NCBI GenBank assembly: GCA_006384855.1
Contig: VCJN01002485.1
Span: forward strand, 62,001 to 126,000
Length of the DNA: 64,000 bases
Direction of reading: 5' to 3'
Source of the DNA: Tetraselmis striata
Taxonomy: Eukaryota; Chlorophyta; Chlorodendrophyceae; Chlorodendrales; Chlorodendraceae
This document shows, in pieces, positions 4,929 to 54,500 of the stretch. Position 1 is the first letter of the stretch. The number at the start of each line of letters is the position of its first letter. The notes below the pieces were generated by a model. The model searched no databases, was not told the origin of the DNA, and was given only the letters and a program-made list of their open reading frames with translations. Position numbers and translations under genes: made by a program.

Positions 4929-5071
4929 ATGGCCGCTGTGAATAGGGATCGCAAGCGATGGGGGCTGGCAGCGAAGCTGGCGGTGGGAGTTGGGGCAGGG
5001 GTGGCGCTGGGCGCGGCGGCGGTGGCGGCGGTGAGGGTGGCGCAGCGGGAGCGGGAGCGAAGGCGCGCCCC
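4929..5071 (+). CDS. Candidate first exon of the TBC gene (N-terminal membrane segment)
   Basis: From the ATG at 4929 the frame reads MAAVNRDRKRWGLAAKLAVG, a 20-odd residue Ala/Val/Gly-rich hydrophobic helix, then an Arg/Glu-rich stretch (VAQRERERRR). It looks like a short cytosolic N-terminus, one transmembrane helix and a charged linker. Codon usage (GC3-rich) matches the TBC exons downstream. A possible donor (GCG|GTGAGG near 5030) gives the wrong phase for the next exon, which needs two bases carried over, so at least one more exon or another donor is missing. Another coding-like frame (NTAVFCVGERGRFVRR) occurs near 5155-5205. Membership in the TBC gene is inferred from position and strand only. 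Confidence 0.35.
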
Positions 5072-29685: not shown

Positions 29686-30445
29686 TAGGGCTCCCGCCGC
29701 CTGCCGCTCCGCCGACCCACGCCGCGGCGTGTGCTGCGCCCCGCATAGTCGCCTCGAATATAATATACATGACGCGGGGACGGGGGGGGGGGGGGGGGGG
29801 GGGATTCGTGCGTTTCGTATGTCGGCGGAAAGGCGTGCGAAGCTGCGGCTGGCGAAGGTGGTGGAAGTAAGCGTGGCGGCGTCGGCGGCGTATTACCGTG
29901 CGTGCATGCGTGCGCAACCCCGCGGCAGCAAGCGCCGGACTCGGCGTGTGCCAGCGGCAGAGCTGCGAAGCCATGGACACGGTACGGGATGCCAAGTCTG
30001 GCTAAGCAACTGCCGAGGCTGGCGGCTTAACCCCCATGTCCGGCGGTTGAGGGACGGAAAGTGCGTAGAAGTTGATCGGGAAAGCGGGCATATAAGCCTG
30101 GCTGTGCTAGGTTCCTATTAAGTAATGGCGGTTTGTGCTAAGTAATTCGTAGGGGTAGACCATGAAGCGCAGGTAGGGGGCGGTATACATGAGGCCGGGC
30201 ACATATACTGCTCCACGAAACGACACTGTCGCACGTGTAGTTGAATAGACGCCCGCCGACCCGCCACGGCATGTAATATCTGTCATGCATCGCCGGGGTA
30301 TGTGTGAGTGGATGCCCCGCCGCCACATCCCCCCCCCCCCCCATTTACACTTGTGCACTCATTAAGTTTGGGCTGGTTTCGGAGCAGTACATGTACGTAT
30401 GTATATACATACAATGGAACGTAGGACCTGCGCGGAAAGAGGCGG

Positions 30446-31575
30446 GGCTGGCGGAGTGCGTTGGGGGTGCGTAGAGTAGCGTGTTGGTGAGATTCGGGGA
30501 TGGGCATCGGACGCCGGATGCCCATCCACCCAGCGTAAAAGACGCGTACGTAATATTCACACTATATATATTCACACGCAAATGTGTGAAAACCGGACAT
30601 TCCGTGCCGGATGGGTGGGAATACGGCGTCCGATGCAGCCAAGACCCCAGCAACACGCTATTCTGTGCACCGCCAATGCACTCCGCCAACACTGCCTCAT
30701 TCTCTGTCGATTTCGAAAACGCCTTCACATTATCCACCGCTAATTGCAATTGCCACCGTGTAATGTTGTCACGGTGTGCGCACACAACAACACTTACTAC
30801 CGGTTCCGACGCGGAGGGAGGCGAGGCTTGCGGAGTGCGTTGGGGGTGCGTAGAGTAGCGTGCTGCAAATAATTGGGGTGCATCGGACGCCGGATGCCCA
30901 CCCACCCGGCGTAAAAGACGCGTAATATTCACACTTTTTAACACACAAATGTGTGAAAACCGGACATTCCGTGCCGGATGGGTGGGAATACGGCGTCCGA
31001 TGCAGCCAAGACCCCAGCAACACGCTATTCTGTGCACCGCCAATGCACTCCGCTAGCACCGCCTCATTCTCTGTCGATTTCGAAAACGCCTTCACATTAT
31101 CCGCCGCTAATTGCAATTGCCACCGTGTAATGTTGTCACGATGTGCGCACACAACAACACTTACTACCGGTTCCGACGCGGATGGAGACGAGGCTTGCGG
31201 AGTGCGTTGGGGGTGCGTAGAGTAGCGTGCTGCAAATAATTGGGGTGCATCGGACGCCGGATGCCCATCCACCCGGCGTAAAAGACACGTACGTAATATT
31301 CACACAGCTTTATTAACACACAAATGTGTGAAAACCGGACATTCCGTGCCGGATGGGTGGGAATACGGCGTCCGATGCAGCCAAAACCCCAGCAACACGC
31401 TATTCTGTGCACCGCCAATGCACTCCGCTAGCACCGCCTCATTCTCTGTCGATTTCGAAAATGCCTTCACATTATCCACCGCTAATAATTGCAATTGCCA
31501 CCGTGTAATGTTGTCACGATGTGCGCACACAACAACACTTACTACCGGTTCCGACGCGGATGGAGGCGAGGCTTG
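30446..31575. repeat. Tandem array, three units of 367-379 bp with internal hairpins
   Basis: Unit starts at about 30446, 30825, 31192 and 31570 (the start of a truncated fourth). Units are nearly identical. Each holds an inverted pair: a 31-nt arm starting GCATCGGACGCCG (30504 in unit 1) and its imperfect complement ending GGCGTCCGATGC (30636), with a loop of about 70 nt containing TTCACAC...GTGTGAA. Each unit also keeps an open minus-strand block (DNVKAFSKSTENEAVLAECI and flanks). The array lies near the right end of the CACTA element. Confidence 0.9.
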
Positions 31576-31873
31576 CGGAGTGCACTTGCGGTGCACAGAC
31601 TAGCGGGAGACTAGATCCATTGTCGCTTATTTACAAGCACGGGCGGTGCTGCCAGACCTGATCGTCTACGGCCGATATAATATTCACACTATATTAACAT
31701 CGGTGAACACCGCCGCACACCGCCGCACACCGCCGCACAACGCTGCGCGCGCACATTCGTCGCACACATTATCCCGGATTCACTCGCCGTATCCATTACG
31801 CCGTGCTACTTCAACAGTAAACATTGCGAAATTACACCGACACAATGCCGCACCGACTAGCTCTTGACAATAC

Positions 31874-45404: not shown

Positions 45405-47321
45405 ATATATACCCGAGGTTTACCGAGGTATACGAGTACTCGTGCGCGCGGCACGCTCCCACTTGTATTGGTACCCGTTGTACCCGTACCTATAGTATGT
45501 TACACCATCCCGCAGGAACTTGTCGTACATAATTATGCCAAACGAAGTTCCGGTAAAGTATAACGCAAAAGGATAACTGTCACACCTGTGGGGTAAGGTG
45601 CAGCTGGTGGCAGCTGGATTTCGCTTAGCTGCCGGCGATAGGTTCCAGCTCTACACCCGCCCGACCGTGGTCTCGCGTCTGCCATCGGCTTCGGCGCCCG
45701 GATATGACAGCGCCATGAAAACTTTCACTGACGGCATAACGGCACCGGACGGCACGGACAGGAAGCGGGTTGAACGCGGTATCCTAGGTGCATCTCCTCC
45801 CGTCCCTCCCGTCCCTGCAGACCAACTAGTACATCATCTTATTTTGTGATCAATTCAATTTAAGTCGACGACCCCCTCCCCCCCACAACACTTCCCGCGG
45901 TAACCCGCACGACATTTCGCGATCCGAATATGACACGAATAATATGTCCGCGCGCGCCGCGCCCCTGCGCCGTGAGATCCGCCTCGCGCCGCCCGAAGTA
46001 ACCGCCCGGCGCCGGGCATCATCGAAATTCGCTACCGGGCGCGAGTACTGCGGGCGGCGAATCATGCATCCACTACCACGACACCCCCGTCCAGCCCACC
46101 AGCCTCCGCCCACCCCGCAGCGCTACCTCCTGCCCCCTTGGAGGACACATGGAGATAATGGCTGGCTCGGGGCGCGTCTAGGTCTTGAGACGGCGACCAA
46201 GAGGTCTACCCTCGCGACTGCCGCCCGATTGACCAACCCCATCGAGGATTCGCATTTTGCTGACACTATGTGCCTTTAGGGCCAAAAGCGCTCGGATAGA
46301 AGGCAGCTTAGTCAGAATATAAGGAATAAATATTGTACGTTTTTTCCCTAGCTGGTCCGACGGAACTTGTGCCATCGGTGCGAAGTTTATGGTCGGGGCG
46401 GCGCTCATATCGGTTGTTGCGTGGTCGCCACGGAGATCCCGCAGCACGCCGCCTGCGCGGCCGTAGCGGTCGTGACTTGCCCACCATCGCCTCAGAAAGA
46501 GGTACGTCTGGCGCTACGGGCGGTCGCGGTGTCGATGATTGACAGTCGTGGGCTTGCTAGAGGCTAGAGCATGGGCAATGGGCCGCGCGAGGTGCGCGTC
46601 GCGTCGCCGCAGGTGCACATTGTACGAACGGCGCGAACCGCATATCGGGTCTTATTATGTTCGGACAGTTTTTTTCGCAATATCGTACGGGTTACCGCGG
46701 GAATTGTCCCCCCCCCCCCCCTCCCCCACGAGCAGCGCTACTAAAACAACCGTTTGACAAAGACATCGCGTCGCTCCACCCCATCGATGGTGTTTCCGGC
46801 TTGCCCATAACAGCGAGATCCTTGAGTATAATAAGCGCCACACAGTGAAGCGGTTCAAGGAGCTCGCGGTGGCTTGCGCCGGCTATCTGTCCGTACGACC
46901 GTATCCCCAGCCAGCCCACCGACGCCACCATGCGGCATGTGCAAGTAGATTGAAAAGGCGGCTCGCAGCCGCAGGAGGAACTGGCCGCTCTCCAAGAAGT
47001 GGGCGTATAAATAGGATGAAGGCATCCATCTATGGAACTTGTCGTGGTGGGGCAAGTTTTTCGTAGTCGGTGCGAAACGGGACGTCCGACCACCCAGCAC
47101 CCCGCTACTTGAACGAGGCCCAGGAGGCTGCCGCTTTGTTACCAGTGCTCTGTGTGACAGTTATAATGTATGGTAACCTGTCAATGTGCTATCTTTCGCA
47201 TAATACAGTACGAGTACCGGTACCACCATACACTGAATGATGTACATTCTACGGGTACAACGGATGATGGTACGAGTGCGCGCATGTCACGCGCACGAGT
47301 ACTCGCATATCGGCCTTTTGT
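45405..47321. other. No gene supported
   Basis: Short frames on both strands (for example 45598-45849 +, 46692-47093 -) without motifs or consistent splice context. C-rich tract at 46708-46730. Confidence 0.35.
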
Positions 47322-47672
47322 ATTATATATGTTAAGACCCATATGAAAACGTGACACATGTGCACATGTGTCGCCACATGTGCACATGTGTCATCTGAGG
47401 ACACATGTGCACATGTGTCATGTTGCTTTTGACACATGTGCACATGTGTTGCCTCGTGACACATCTGCATATGCGTCAAAATCAAAACCACACATATGCA
47501 CATGTGCTAGCACATGTACACATGTGTCATTTTCCGGCTGATCACGACACATGTGCACATGAGGCATGAACAGTATGGCTCATGTGCATATGCGTGGCCC
47601 GACACGTGACACATGTACATATGTGTCATTTTCGAGTGTGAGATAAGACACATATGAATATATGTTCAGTTT
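47322..47672 (+). repeat. Left inverted repeat: 11 palindromic units
   Basis: Perfect 18-nt palindromes ACACATGTGCACATGTGT at 47354-47371, 47401-47418 and near 47432, plus degenerate units near 47374, 47460, 47491, 47510, 47547, 47579, 47607 and 47647. The core is the 8-bp palindrome CACATGTG doubled. Spacers of about 3-20 nt are not conserved within the arm. Confidence 0.9.
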
Positions 47673-47907
47673 CGTCCACGGAATTCGAGCGTGGGGTTCT
47701 AATTTAGAATTATTTAAATATAGATATTCCGGAAGGCACAAATAAATTGTTTAAGCATGCCGGCCACTCGTTTGATGCCCTTAAAATGTGTATTAGGGCA
47801 CTACAAAGCAACATCAGCCAGCAATGTAAAAAGGACGTCGTCAGCATTTAGACAATGGCAAAGTTAGTGTTGGCAGGTGTCATTACATTGCTGCGCACTA
47901 CTTAAGG

Positions 47908-48242
47908 ACACAAACATGGGTCAAAACTTGGCTAGTGGAATCACCCTCGTCGTAAATGTTCTCACATTTACTGTTGCCATTGTGACACCGGGAATATTGC
48001 ATGTCCTGCGTGCATTGCGGCATGCACATACATTGGTTCTGCACGGACCCTTGCAACTACTCATCAACATACTCTGGCCACCAAATAAGGATGCAGAAGC
48101 CGAAGCGAAGCATTGCGCACTGATATTTGTTTCAAGTTGGCTTTCTCTCGCCGTTGTTCTAGCACACCTTGCAGCCCGTGTTGCGCTAGGACATTGCCAC
48201 GCACATGATCAATATACCCGTGGCCAAAAGTTGGCTTTCTGA
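47908..48242 (+). CDS. Hydrophobic ORF inside the palindrome-bounded unit (weak)
   Basis: From MGQNLASGITLVVNVLTFTV the frame has two hydrophobic stretches (ITLVVNVLTFTVAIVTPGIL and CALIFVSSWLSLAVVLAHLA), each long enough to span a membrane, separated by a His/Leu-rich loop and PPNKDAEAEAKHC. The minus strand of the same DNA also reads through (CELVFQVIEHGHFRLATKVG; 48064-48330), so either strand may be the real one. No family recognised. Confidence 0.25.
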
Positions 48243-48479
48243 CTCCAACCTTTGTCGCAAGCCTGAAATGACCATGCTCAATCACCTGAAACACCAGTTC
48301 ACAGCCATGATATGTGAATATGTCACACACTCATTAAATCAAAACCACAAGCACATAGCAGTACGTAGGCAATGCCATACCAAAAATACATTTATATATA
48401 CATAGGGCTTGTTACCTCGATGACGATGCACACCAAGCATTGTGCATCTAGCTTGGAGCGGTCGACGCTTGGAATTGGG

Positions 48480-51184
48480 GTACGGACGACATCGCCAACC
48501 AATGGTGCTGGCCCATGACGTGCAACCACTCCGGTCCGCATTGCTATGGCTTGATTGGCCTGAGCGTCGGCACACCTAGACCTGATGGCTTGGCGTCTGG
48601 CGTGTCTGCGACGTTCGGGTCTAATTGGACAGACCGCTCCCGTGACTCATGGCGCACCCAGCAGGACGTCAAACACAAACGCCCGAAGAATGCGCGGCTG
48701 AAGGCGCTCGATACGTTGCCGTCTGCAGCCATCTCCACGGGCACCTCCTCTTGTTTGTACACCCAGCACGCCACGTTGGCGACGCCGCGCTTTCGCAGCA
48801 CCTCCGCCAGCCGCATCCCGCCGTTTGCGTCCACGTACACGCCCCGCCCGCCACCGACACGGAGCGTCAGGCGTTGCGACGTTGAAAAAGCTCATGTTAT
48901 GGCAAACATTACATCGCCGCGGCGCAAAAGCAGCAAACCAAACTCAGCACACCAAACAGGAGCCAATGCTGTGCCATCAATGGTGCTGAGGGATGGGCGG
49001 ATACATCATCATTTTCTTGTCATTGTTTAACATTCTCATACATATGCTACGAGTGCAGACGCGGTGTTGAAAACACAGGGAATATGAACATGCCTTTTGT
49101 GCCACGTCAAATCTAGACGTAACAATTGCGGGAGTATAGGAAGTGCTCTTTTATAGCTTGCGGAACATGAGGCTTCTAGACAAAAATCTTATGGGTGAGT
49201 TGGCACCCGTAGTTCTAATATCATATTTTATGTCAATTTGTTTTTGCATCAAGTACGACAGAAAACCTAACCAGGATGGCATGCCGTCAAGCGTGCGGCA
49301 AAGCGTGCACCGCAAAGGTGATGGCGATGCGGACGGCGGCAAGCCCGGGAGGGGCAACCTGGCAAAAGCTGCCACAGGAGCAGATGAACTCCGCGATATC
49401 CTCCTGGGTTGCCACGCCGCCGGGCTCCACTTACCGCCGCCCATACGCAACGCCCCCAATGATAGGCCGCTGCGGCCGCCGTTGATGCCGTCCCTGTATC
49501 CACGGCGGGGCAGACAAAGTACGGCAAGGTGGGGTGGAGCTGCGCCATGGCGTCACCGAGCGTTGTTAGCACGGAGTTCCACTCAACCTGCACCTCTACA
49601 TGCGCCCACGCCCCAAGCGCAGAGTTAGGCAAGCCGCCGTCGGGTCGAGCACGGCGATGAGAGGCAGCAACAGGCAGGAACCCCCCCCCCCCCCCCCCCC
49701 CCCCCCGCCCCCCCTCCCTCCAACACACACTAAAGCCCCAAGTACAGCTGCTTGGGCTCCCTAAAGGGACAGTCATGTACTCTCAAGCGCACGCACCTCA
49801 GCCTTGTACGCTTCGCCACAGAGAGCCACGACGTCGCTTAGCGCGCCGCATCCGCTGCGGAAAGCCGGCGCCTGGCCTTGACTGGAACCGCACACCACGA
49901 CGAGGATGCGCCCCACCTCTGTCTTTGCGATCGACTCCCACTCATTGGCGCGTGCGGCCCCAAGCTCGGCGGGGGCCGCCGCTTCTTGCAACGTGTCTCT
50001 TCGCTCGTCTGCCTGCTGTTCCAGCTGTTGAACATCGACAGCATGCATGGTCGGAGCAGACCAGAAAGGGAGACATGTTGCCAGTTGGGGGGGGGGGGGG
50101 GGGTTCATGCTCATTCTCCGCCTCAGCCGCCGCCGCTCAGCCATATCGCTTCCTCTTCTGACGTTAGGCTCGCGCAAGGGTTCGGTCCCGATCCGGACGG
50201 GGGCACTGGTCTCTTGACCAGTACTTGACCCCCGCCACGAGTGAGAAGTTCGAATTTTCCCGCACTAGGGGCTGCCTTCTTCCTTTCCTGAAACCACAAC
50301 AACAACGTCGAGGAGGGAAGTAAGACAATATCTATATCATACCATTGTTCAATTGTGTCAGCGATAATGATAGAGGAAGGAGACGATGAGAGAGAGCGGC
50401 GGGGAGCATGGGTGGAGATCGGGGGCATCATAGTCCAAGATTGCGCGAGGCAGGAACGCCATTGTCATATAATATTTTCGGTTGGTCGGTATAGGGAGGC
50501 GAGGGACAGAGAGAGGGACTTTTGGGAGAACGAAAGAGAGCGGGTGGGGGGGGGGGGGGGGGGGGGGGGGGTCGTTCTGGCCAAGCATCGCAAGGCGAGA
50601 GCGCCCATAGGCAACGTGTAGTAGGGGCGAGTGGCGGACGGCGGCCGCCGCGGCTCCTCGGCGGCGGCGGCGGCGGCGCGGCGGCGGCTTACCTCCGATC
50701 CTACCTCAAGGGTGTCGTATATGCGCAAGCACTCCAGAGCGTGTGCGTACTCCGACTCGAATACTAGTGTCATGTTCTTCGCTTTGCTGGCGAGCTACTC
50801 CTAGAGCTTGGCGTTGAAAACATGCCGATGCAGGTCGACCATGTAGGCAGTGTCCTCTGGAGGCGGCACAGCGTTGAGAGCGGGGCATGTACCGCAGCTG
50901 CTAGGCAGGCAGCGCCACGGTGCGCCGGGCGCCCCCCGTGCTGTGCAGCATTAGCGCCATCCGGAGCGATAGCCGCCGCGGCTGGCTGGCCGTCGAGCAT
51001 GACGTCCTGCAGACAAGACCGCCTCGCTGGTTGGGGCCGACGGTGGAGGGGGGAAAGGGGGTAAGGCGGGCTGGGAGTAAGGGTACTGAGTGCGCGACCC
51101 AACCTGTGCACGCGCCATTTTGAACTTGCGGGCGAGCTGCCGCCCGCACGCCCGCCGCCCCGCCAGGCAGCCACCCATGAACAT
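48480..51184 (-). pseudogene. Decayed multi-exon gene inside the palindrome-bounded unit
   Basis: Minus-strand blocks in order: MFMGGCLAGRRACGRQLARK with FKMARAQ|GTTGGG (51184-51104); PPPEDTAYMVDLHRHVFNAK, two stops, ASKAKNMTLVFESEYAHALE and CLRIYDTLEVGSE (50880-50695); MHAVDVQQLEQQADERRDTL, NEWESIAKTEVGRILVVVCG and CGALSDVVALCGEAYKAEVR (50050-49780); WNSVLTTLGDAMAQLHPTLP with YFVCPAVDTGTAS (49590-49500); VATQEDIAEFICSCGSFCQV (49415-49355); GRGVYVDANGGMRLAEVLRK, RGVANVACWVYKQEEVPVEM and CWVRHESRERSVQLDPNVAD (48850-48610). C-tract introns separate several. It could be the element's own transposase, but I see no DDE, HUH or other catalytic signature, so no function is assigned. Confidence 0.4.
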
Positions 51185-51249
51185 CTTTCGCCCGCAGCTT
51201 ATCGCCCCTCCGCAGGGTCGCTACTTATACTCGTTTTTCACGGATAGGA

Positions 51250-51588
51250 TACAAACCTATGAATATGTGTAGAAAGCAATGGACGCGGGTGACCCATATG
51301 CTTATGTGTATCGATAAATACGGCGCATGTGTACATGTGTCGTCATCAGCCGGAAATATACCCCATGTGGACATGTGATAACACAAATGCACATGTGTCA
51401 ACTCCGGAGTTGCCACAGGTGCATATGTGTCATCGTACAACACATGTGCACATGTGTCTAAAATCACGATGATACATGTGCACAAGTGTCCTCAGATGAC
51501 ACATGTGCACATGTGGCGTCACATGTGCACATGTGGCGACACGTGTGCACATGTGTCACGTTTTCATATGGGTCTTAACATATATAAT
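51250..51588 (-). repeat. Right inverted repeat: about 11 palindromic units
   Basis: Inverted counterpart of 47322-47672. Perfect or near-perfect units near 51440, 51499, 51521 and 51541; degenerate ones at about 51326, 51364, 51383, 51413 and 51473. Read on the minus strand, unit order and several spacers match the left arm. Confidence 0.9.
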
Positions 51589-54500
51589 TAGGTCTGCCTG
51601 TCATGTCAGATATATATATTATTGACAATGCGGGGCATATTTATGTATTGCCGTCCAACGACGGGGCTGACGTCCTGGCTGACGGCTGACTCTCCATGGT
51701 GACGCCCTTGGCAGTGGGGGTGCTGCTAGAGGTCGGTCTGGCTTGACGACTATAGTACCGACTATAGCTAGATTATTATTTGGGCAGCGGGTGGTGGCAT
51801 CTTGTCACAATTATTGCATGCTGAGAAAAACATTGTAGCCTCTCGCCTCTGCACTAGCACAGCACATCCACTTTTGTTTATCTTTGCGTCTCGACTGCTG
51901 AGACTCTCGCATCTCTCCCCGGCACACCGGTCCCCTGGGTACTCGCTAAATGAAATCCCCCCGGGGTTTAAGTTGTGTATAGCGGGGTCCCAATCCTGAG
52001 ATGCAACTACCGAAACGAGTGAGAATAGTGATTAGTGTACGGTTGATACAGTCAAATATAACGACATTTGATCAAAACTCAGAGCCCACGTGACCACCCG
52101 TCTCGCCAACCCATCCCGCCCCACCGATGCCAGTCGAACACACCGGCCGGCACCATCACGCGCATACCGCGGTAGCAGCGGGCTAACGTAGTCATATGGT
52201 GGCGTTCAGGTGCCTCGTCTTGTGTGTCGCTGGCAGGGTCGGGGCTGGCGGCGGGATGATGAGAGAGGAGCGCGAGCGGTCACGTGCTAATATTTCGCAC
52301 GCAGTGCGTGCCACGTAGTCAAAAAGCGTTGCCAGCTACACATCTCGGATTTGAGCCCCGGTTACGGTCTTCAGAAACGAGTACCTACGCGAACCGGTGT
52401 GGGCGGAGAAGGGCGATGCCAACCCTACCACAATCCCTGCCGTGGAAAAGTGTCCGAGATTATTTCAGTGCAATTGGTGTTGGATGTTTGCACGCGTGCT
52501 GCCTTATGCATGTGGTGACGACATCATAACGACTGGATTATTTGTTTTTTGTAATTATAACTTAGGTGCGGCATCGACATGAACGGCAACCCACTGAAGG
52601 AGCAATCTATCGGTCTCCCCCCCCCCCCCCCCCCCCCCTCCGTTGTCTAGTCCCCCAGCTCCCGGCCCCCGCGCCGCTCGAGCCTCCCCGCTGCATCATG
52701 ATACGAACAACATGCAAACGGCTTCAGTTGGGCGTGTGCATGTGCCCTCCAACTTCGTTTCTACGGCGAGGATGCAAGCCGGGCGTCAACAACGGCAAGC
52801 GCATTCGAGAGCGGCAGTAACGGCCAACAACCCGTGACCAGTCAACACCTTAGCCGTGGGCATCGGATGGCGGGCATGGAAATGGACAACACCACCTCAC
52901 AAGCCGCAGCCACAGGGGCGAGGCAGGCCGGGCAAGAGAGGCCCGCGGCAGCCCAGCCCCCGGGCAGTAGCAGTAGCTAGCCCGGCGGCCGCGGGCGGCA
53001 ATAGAGGTCCAATGTAATTACATTTTCTGGTTTGTATCTCAGTACTTTCGCACATTGTCCAACCCCACCAGCAGCATAAAACTGAAAGTGACCGATACTC
53101 ACCTGTCAAATATGCTAGATAGGATCAAGCGTGCTTAAATGCGCTTAACTACAGTTATAGGTAAGCTCCACTATCATTGGCTGTTGGGTTGGCAACATCC
53201 AATATGGCGTGTCTGCTCTGATAAAACCTCAAACCGGCCGCCGCCCGCGTGAGATTCATTTCCGCTGTCTCTATCACGTTGTCGATATGTGGCAACAATA
53301 CTGCAGCTCCCACCCGTTACGCGTTTGAACCCCTGCGACAACTCGCGAGTAGCCGCGGAGTAATCGTGCTCCCATCCACGCTTAGTGATCTTCTAGAATA
53401 TCATCACAAAGTATTGTACTTGTACCACTCCCGCCGTATCTTATAGTGATGACTCGTGACTACTCGTGCCCTACTCGTCACGCTACTCTGTAGTATATAC
53501 TCAGCAGTGCAAGACATCGATGCGGTTCACATGCTTGTATCCCAAAATAAATTACTGCGGCGCTTACCGGTTAAGCGATGTACATCGTGCAGCTTCATAC
53601 ATGCGATTACTCGCGCTTACTGTTTGGTAGGCGCTGTTAAGCGGACCCGTTATGACGAGTTAAGGCGAAGTACTACCGGCGGCATGAAGTAGGCATGCAC
53701 TATTGCGGTAAGTACCAAGACCAGCGGAGCGCGCGTGGCGTTAGCCGGCAACCGAAGGGCCGGCGGTGTTCTCTCGGAGGTACTTCGCGAATAACACGTG
53801 CATGTCGACGGACATTTGAGCCGTCAAACAACGTACCAAAAAGGCGACGACAACATCAAGGCGCAAATAGTTTTAAAACGCGGGCAAACGGATATTTGGC
53901 CTAACGATACATCCCGCTCTGCAAGTTATTTGCGCAGCAAAACCAAGAAGTGCTCGACCAACCGATCGCCCTACTCAATGACACAAGGCACGAATCGGTG
54001 GCGGCGGCGTTGCACGCGGCGCGAGGCCTAGTTGCATGAGAGACCATGGAGAGCTTTGTGCGCTCGCGGTGCAGCTCGGCGTAGCATGGCTGTAAATAAT
54101 CCTCAACATAGATACGAAATATGACTATGAATAACAATATATAATGACAACAAACAACAGTGACGACATGTAATCCTCAGCAGAGACGCCCAGCCGACAA
54201 TGTGCACCGTCGACGTTGCATGAAGATAAGACTTCCCCATCATATTCTGCGAAGAGGGAGTCTGATGTGAGTCAAGTGCGGTATAGTTTTTTACATGAGG
54301 GCTTTAACAAATGCGCACTACAAACAAAACTAACATCAACTATGAAAGGTTGCCAGCAAAAGAGAGACGTAAGCCTGAAACCAAGGTCGAGCAGGAGGCC
54401 AGGGAGCCAAGAACCAAGGAGGAGCCAAGGGAACCACGAAGTCGCCAAGCAGTCCGGAACCAAAGGGGGCACCGCCCCGGGGTAGGCTATCTGCCACGGC

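Follow-up and report, generated by a model that had tools for sequence, protein, structure and literature searches.

The window analysed here, 64,000 nucleotides of the green alga Tetraselmis striata (contig VCJN01002485.1, positions 62,001 to 126,000; C2003 in our searches), carries a mobile element with long inverted repeats at positions 47330..51580. We consider it probable that this element is a Pack-type, non-autonomous, Ginger2-like transposon whose ends are arrays of putative transposase-dimer sites. Its borders, target site and terminal arms are as follows.

47330..51580, no strand: whole element, 4251 bp, TGTTAAGACCC...GGGTCTTAACA, delimited by the ends in eight full copies, the flanks of 31 two-ended copies and the empty-site alignment
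47330..47664, plus strand: left-hand arm (terminal inverted repeat), a tip followed by about 11 dyad units CACATGT-NN-ACATGTG, four of them perfect (47355-47370, 47375-47390, 47402-47417 and 47433-47448)
51253..51580, minus strand: right-hand arm (terminal inverted repeat) of about 11 dyad units, three of them perfect (51441-51456, 51500-51515 and 51520-51535)
47326..47329, no strand: left 4-bp target duplication TATA, from the flanks of two-ended copies and the empty-site alignment
51581..51584, no strand: right 4-bp target duplication TATA, from the same two sources
47152..47329, no strand: part of a long terminal repeat (LTR)-like repeat of a gypsy-type retrotransposon, the insertion target, from unfilled-site matches and alignment
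51581..51915, no strand: other part of the same LTR-like repeat, from the unfilled-site alignment

Copies, ends and target duplication

The 224-Mb genome was searched with the element DNA, which gave 141 matching stretches, and the best 40 of 89 candidates were scored. At least 15 near-full copies, including that of the window, each matched over a single stretch of ~3.9-4.3 kb (84-100% identity). Seven full copies (L002-L008) were 96-99% identical among themselves and ~91% identical to the window copy, indicating fairly recent movement of the family, within which the window copy has diverged more. The tip TGTTAAGACCCATATGAAAA occurred 99 times in the genome with at most two mismatches, and its reversed control 0 times. 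Both ends could be read in 31 copies, so that the arms act as the pair of one mobile element, as an earlier note made from the window alone had proposed. Eight full copies had the ends TGTTAAG...CTTAACA (one left tip was TGTTAAC). Their left flank was TATA, and so was the right one except for a single CATA. At C813:7750-8020 (L057) lies a 71-bp miniature in which both tips are present, the array is almost absent and TATG stands on each side.

The same note had reported no target duplication. We found TATA on both sides of the window copy, identical 4-bp flanks in 21 of the 31 two-ended copies (and additionally in the miniature), and four duplicated bases by comparison with the empty site; because TATA is self-complementary, the duplication had been missed and taken as part of the repeat. 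Three of the identical flanks are not self-complementary (CATC in C443, TATC in C1376, TATG in C2476), which means that the flanking bases were duplicated and lie outside the inverted repeat. The target RTATAY was exact at 17 of the 31 sites, and 11 of the other 14 had at least four A/T bases of six.

The predicted unfilled sequence had 65 genome matches, all with 1-3 mismatches and none exact, and its control had 0. Six unfilled sequences were then aligned with the joined flanks of four filled copies. The lengths of the window copy, C2846 and C1706 agreed with five of the six unfilled sites if 4 bp were duplicated; the outliers were C2425, two bases shorter, and L090, twelve longer. Since a reading frame beside one unfilled copy resembles, by eye, a gypsy-type integrase, the split repeat is probably an LTR. 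Among the 65 matches, eleven same-strand neighbours were spaced 6.2-6.9 kb apart and one more 5.7 kb.

Transposase gene and the replaced middle

Copy C501 (L040, 5144 bp) carries on its minus strand a multi-exon gene. Its parts are an N-terminal exon, an HHCC-like motif, the catalytic triad, PYKAVFG, a zinc-finger-like exon, the VGDVVRIPIPSVDRSK exon and the cysteine-rich tail (motif names except rve and IS481 were assigned by eye), and the catalytic residues follow in order as D (YLLTCIDHG), D (ILQADNGREF) and E (GGAERFN). The joined catalytic exons of C501 matched the IS481 profile at 4.8e-13 (residues 50-226), catalytic exons matched a PHROG transposase profile at 2.8e-5, and the family of the window copy, family A, matched rve at 7.5e-7. 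The fuller copies encode a DDE integrase-type transposase, as judged from the single copy C501. The earlier note had suggested an undescribed family and had asked whether a consensus of the interior protein would match a known transposase family; a match of that kind was obtained, through C501 and not through a consensus, and the suggestion is not supported. In the guessed splice, ~55-60 residues separate the second D from the E. Integrases have ~35 residues there, making the distance here ~20-25 residues longer. HxxxxH and FCETCATC are visible by eye in L041.

One catalytic exon had 78 genome matches, five of them at 85% or more (C501, C220, C489, C2609 and a partial one on C1266), all five on contigs that also bear an end or the body of a family A element; a sixth match, broken, lies inside the family A copy at C2306. 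Among the best 150 of 183 candidates for the C-terminal protein piece, identity ranged from ~100% in family A down to mostly 39-57% in relatives. A Pfam scan of ten reading-frame pieces from L003, L004 and L007 gave nothing above chance, the cysteine-rich exon of C501 had weak Pfam matches (it is CXC-like by eye), and no Pfam hit to OTU or Ulp1 was obtained with the exon pieces tested. The C-terminal half may resemble vertebrate KRBA2-like proteins.

The window copy matches C501 over the outer 1325 and 1375 bases and differs in the middle. Five middle exons had no match in the three copies tested (window copy, L003 and L007), in which the N- and C-terminal exons are kept. The interior of the window copy is composed of the following pieces.

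50702..50887, minus strand: remnant of the N-terminal transposase exon (tblastn, 82% amino acid identity to C501)
48667..50209, minus strand: probable captured host-gene fragment replacing the catalytic exons, collinear with locus C350 (L096 1952-3487) at ~83% DNA identity
48413..48654, minus strand: transposase remnant, from the exon that carries the VGDVVRIPIPSVDRSK motif (the motif reads as it does in C501 and L004)
47901..48300, minus strand: what is left of the cysteine-rich C-terminal exon, CXC-like by eye and split into three pieces with a broken frame

The middle of the window copy matched C350 in a single stretch, at ~83% over 1.5 kb, and open frames of 219, 311 and 512 codons in C350 cross both borders of the match. 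A protein piece of the middle had 39 matches on 32 contigs; on 31 contigs the match lies within the element, and the remaining one is C350. Taken together, these results suggest that a host-gene fragment took the place of the catalytic exons and was amplified along with the element. The middle is thus probably a fragment of a probable host gene, with C350 as the probable donor, and we infer that the capture ran from host gene to element and that the donor is a working gene. Five pieces of the C350 gene gave only chance-level matches in Pfam. The absence of a catalytic motif from the interior, which the earlier note had remarked on, holds for the window copy, whose interior consists of the probable host-gene fragment and transposase remnants; because the catalytic exons were replaced, this copy cannot make transposase. 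The fragments at C2425:65727 and C221:9699 were just 56-62% alike to the query in protein, far below most others, and may be older copies or reflect frame breaks or a second capture. C350 also holds an element of a related family ~190 kb off.

The window element is therefore non-autonomous and carries a probable host-gene fragment with an identifiable donor, which are the marks of a Pack-type element. Plant Pack-type DNA transposons, as described in the available text of PMC8903248 and PMC13317346, are likewise non-autonomous, with inverted repeats and a gene fragment that has a matching locus elsewhere; unlike them, the carrier here appears to be Ginger2-like. With the captured fragment, an integrase-type transposon would join the known carriers of host exons among mobile elements.

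Dyad units and related families

The arms are inverted repeats of ~330 bp, whose outer stretches of 69 and 76 nt are complementary at 99% and 92%. They had been described as arrays of about eleven perfect palindromes. The arrays are real, with ~11 units per arm and more dyads than in shuffled sequence, but only part of the units is perfect: four on the left and three on the right are perfect doubled CACATGTG, and the remaining ones are degenerate. An extra perfect dyad lies at 47501 in the left arm, in another register. Compared with 500 dinucleotide shuffles per arm, dyads with at least 7 of 8 pairs numbered 7 in the left arm (shuffle mean 0.57, maximum 3) and 5 in the right (0.46, maximum 3), and those with at least 6 of 8 pairs numbered 10 and 11 (means 3.2 and 2.7, maxima 8 and 8). 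The units look like symmetric, putative protein-binding sites, in agreement with the earlier proposal.

Between the two arms of the window copy, 24/24 tip bases, 137/156 unit bases and 88/113 spacer bases were identical in the alignment, confirming the likeness in unit order and spacers; as unit bases were chosen by resemblance to the consensus, the higher identity of units than of spacers is partly built in. The two arms of one copy were alike along their whole length (~68-84%), and the same arm compared across copies reached 0.94-0.99 by block, far above the arm-to-arm value within a copy.

Nine loci (L039, L041-L044 and L097-L100) were retrieved for other families, and three related families were distinguished.

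Family B, L039 and L041-L044: dyad CCATGT-NN-ACATGG, TGTTA ends
Family C, L097, L098 and an array beside L039: CCTGTGT-NN-ACACAGG, TGTTG ends, TATA on both sides in L097 and L098
Family D, one locus, L099: ACTTGTTT-NN-AAACAAGT, TGTTA ends, TATA on both sides

Identical 4-bp flanks were found in three of the five family B loci (TATA, TATA and CATA), and the others had TAAA/TATA and CATA/TATA. The family D array has three units on the left and eight on the right. In L100, the left tip and a unit near 4983 are of type B, and the right tip was not seen. The half-site consensus was CACATGT in A (22 units), nCCATGT in B (18), CCTGTGT in C (23) and CTTGTTT in D (13). All four have T at positions 5 and 7, and their outer triplets are ACA, CCA, CTG and TTG. 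The words of A and B differ mainly at half-site position 2, at the outermost position and in the centre. The left-arm spacers of A and C were 53% alike, and shuffles 44%. The catalytic cores of A and B are 60% identical.

A fixed unit geometry across all families was considered and dropped when one rule was applied to 24 arm comparisons: A-right/B-right gave 7/11 (p 0.012), A-left/C-left 6/11 (p 0.016), and the other 22 gave p 0.14-1. This test supersedes an earlier one of five comparisons, with lists of 6-9 units chosen after seeing positions, which had looked favourable in two. In L039, family B apparently lies inside family C sequence, and in L098 B-type units adjoin the C element. At L044 5287-7001, a tandem array of 258-bp units, 96-98% alike, adjoins the family B element.

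Classification and alternative readings

Ginger2/Tdd elements, as described in the available text of PMC2836005, have TGTNR ends, a 4-bp duplication (5 bp in TDD-4 and TDD-5), an RTATAY target and inverted repeats of 45-180 bp (260 in TDD-4, 297 in TDD-5). The elements studied here also have inverted repeats with TGTNR ends (TGTTA in A, B and D; TGTTG in C), a 4-bp duplication, a preference for RTATAY and a DDE integrase-type transposase domain, found in C501 and not in the window copy. The CCGG or CCGT duplication of Ginger1 type was present in 0/31 copies. Unlike Ginger2/Tdd in that description, the ends here are arrays of dyad units, and the gene is multi-exon with cysteine-rich C-terminal exons, a longer second D-E stretch and, in the window copy, a gene fragment inside. 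In the portions of the literature consulted, no case was found of palindromes in Ginger2, of gene capture by Ginger or of Ginger in green algae.

For such an element, we propose that transposase dimers (or dimers of one DNA-binding domain) would bind the dyad row at each end and bring both ends together. Cutting would then occur at TGT...ACA, and AT-rich, RTATAY-like sites would receive the element through a 4-bp staggered insertion. The fragment-bearing version has multiplied to ~30 copies, presumably moved by transposase made elsewhere. That transposase dimers could read a dyad row has a studied parallel in the hAT transposon Hermes, whose subterminal repeats include two that form a quasi-palindrome bound cooperatively by two BED domains (PMC10368747, in the text available). 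Repeated sites in the ends are common to both; unlike Hermes, which is of another superfamily and has shorter motifs, the arms here have ~11 dyads each, as putative binding sites.

Several results weigh against a Ginger2-like transposon with dimer-site arrays. The IS481 match of C501 scored 49.3 bits (curated cut-off 224), and rve scored 29.8 bits in family A and only 20.2 bits (7.5e-4) in family B (cut-off 32.6). With a two-sequence profile searched against solved structures, three integrases appeared at E 0.03-0.17 alongside six chance hits, and with a single sequence there was no match. The H2C2 finger gave no Pfam hit and was seen by eye only, the splice sites of C501 were guessed, and an in-frame stop is present. 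The filing as Ginger2/Tdd-like was made from ends, duplication, target and domain type and not from a tree. As for the flanks, they were imperfect in 10 of the 31 two-ended copies, and the copies are not all independent: C417 and C2182 have a common flank, and the window copy, C2425, C2846 and C1706 share the same place of one repeat, reflecting either separate insertions or copying of a filled repeat. The C813 miniature has matching TATG flanks and almost no array. Within one element per family, half-sites varied little in A, B and C and more in D, but since the units had been selected for their resemblance to the consensus of the family, this uniformity is partly built in. The words of A and B overlap, the B pattern finding 9 and 7 units in the A arms and the A pattern 7-8 in B. 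Unit spacing between families reached p<0.02 in 2 of 24 arm comparisons, which was not significant after correction.

A further-reaching reading, which we put forward tentatively and think less probable than its contrary, is that the clan is a distinct lineage whose ends are rows of spaced dyads with a near-constant inner core and a family-specific outer triplet. In most units the triplet would have changed simultaneously in the two arms, leaving a record of the co-evolution of the transposase DNA-binding domain and its sites. For a transposase with many binding sites to shift its specificity, every one of these sites has to follow, and how the two manage this in step is an open question. One genome holding four families with different dyad words could show such a co-change, and since the catalytic domains of A and B are as close as stated above, the protein residues that read the words could be sought by comparison.

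The units might instead be bound by a protein of the host, or give rise to hairpin RNA and silencing, and be kept for expression or regulation. We regard this as rather unlikely. It would accommodate the nearly array-free miniature with its matching flanks and the unit spacing that is generally not kept between families, and the role of the units as transposase sites is itself read from sequence. However, the half-site word differs by family while the tips of B, C and D share 15-16 of 20 bases with A, for which an element-encoded reader is more natural than one host factor, and the central two bases in family B vary (at least eight kinds in 18 units), as in a spaced dyad.

It is likewise doubtful, in our judgement, that the clan is IS481EU-like or a separate superfamily of integrase-type transposons. 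In favour of this are the best curated profile, which is IS481, the longer second D-E stretch and the extra cysteine-rich exons. IS481EU, as far as described in the available text of PMC10045372, shares TGT...ACA ends, a related DDE domain and, in some families, 4-bp duplications; but it comes from parabasalids, has duplications of ~4, 15 or 25 bp and lacks the HHCC motif, whereas the matching flanks here are 4 bp (longer ones were not searched for) and an HHCC-like motif is seen by eye. The TGTNR ends and RTATAY targets are those given for Ginger2 in PMC2836005, which argues for the Ginger2-like assignment.

Regarding the middle, the C350 gene could have taken exons from the transposon, or the fragment could have reached both from a third source. 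The direction is undated, the donor frames have no Pfam match above chance, and long open frames arise easily in GC-rich DNA. Against this, the match to C350 stops close to both edges of the middle, the open frames of C350 run on beyond them, and the fragment is absent from C501, which makes these routes improbable and favours capture by the element. That the arms, being short-repeat arrays, are satellites lying near each other by chance, the alternative named in the earlier note, has virtually no probability left and is refuted by inverted pairs round a shared interior in 31 copies, matching 4-bp flanks in 21 of them and the empty site.

Elsewhere in the window, positions 30431-31583 hold a tandem repeat with 3.1 copies of a 367-bp unit (93% matches).

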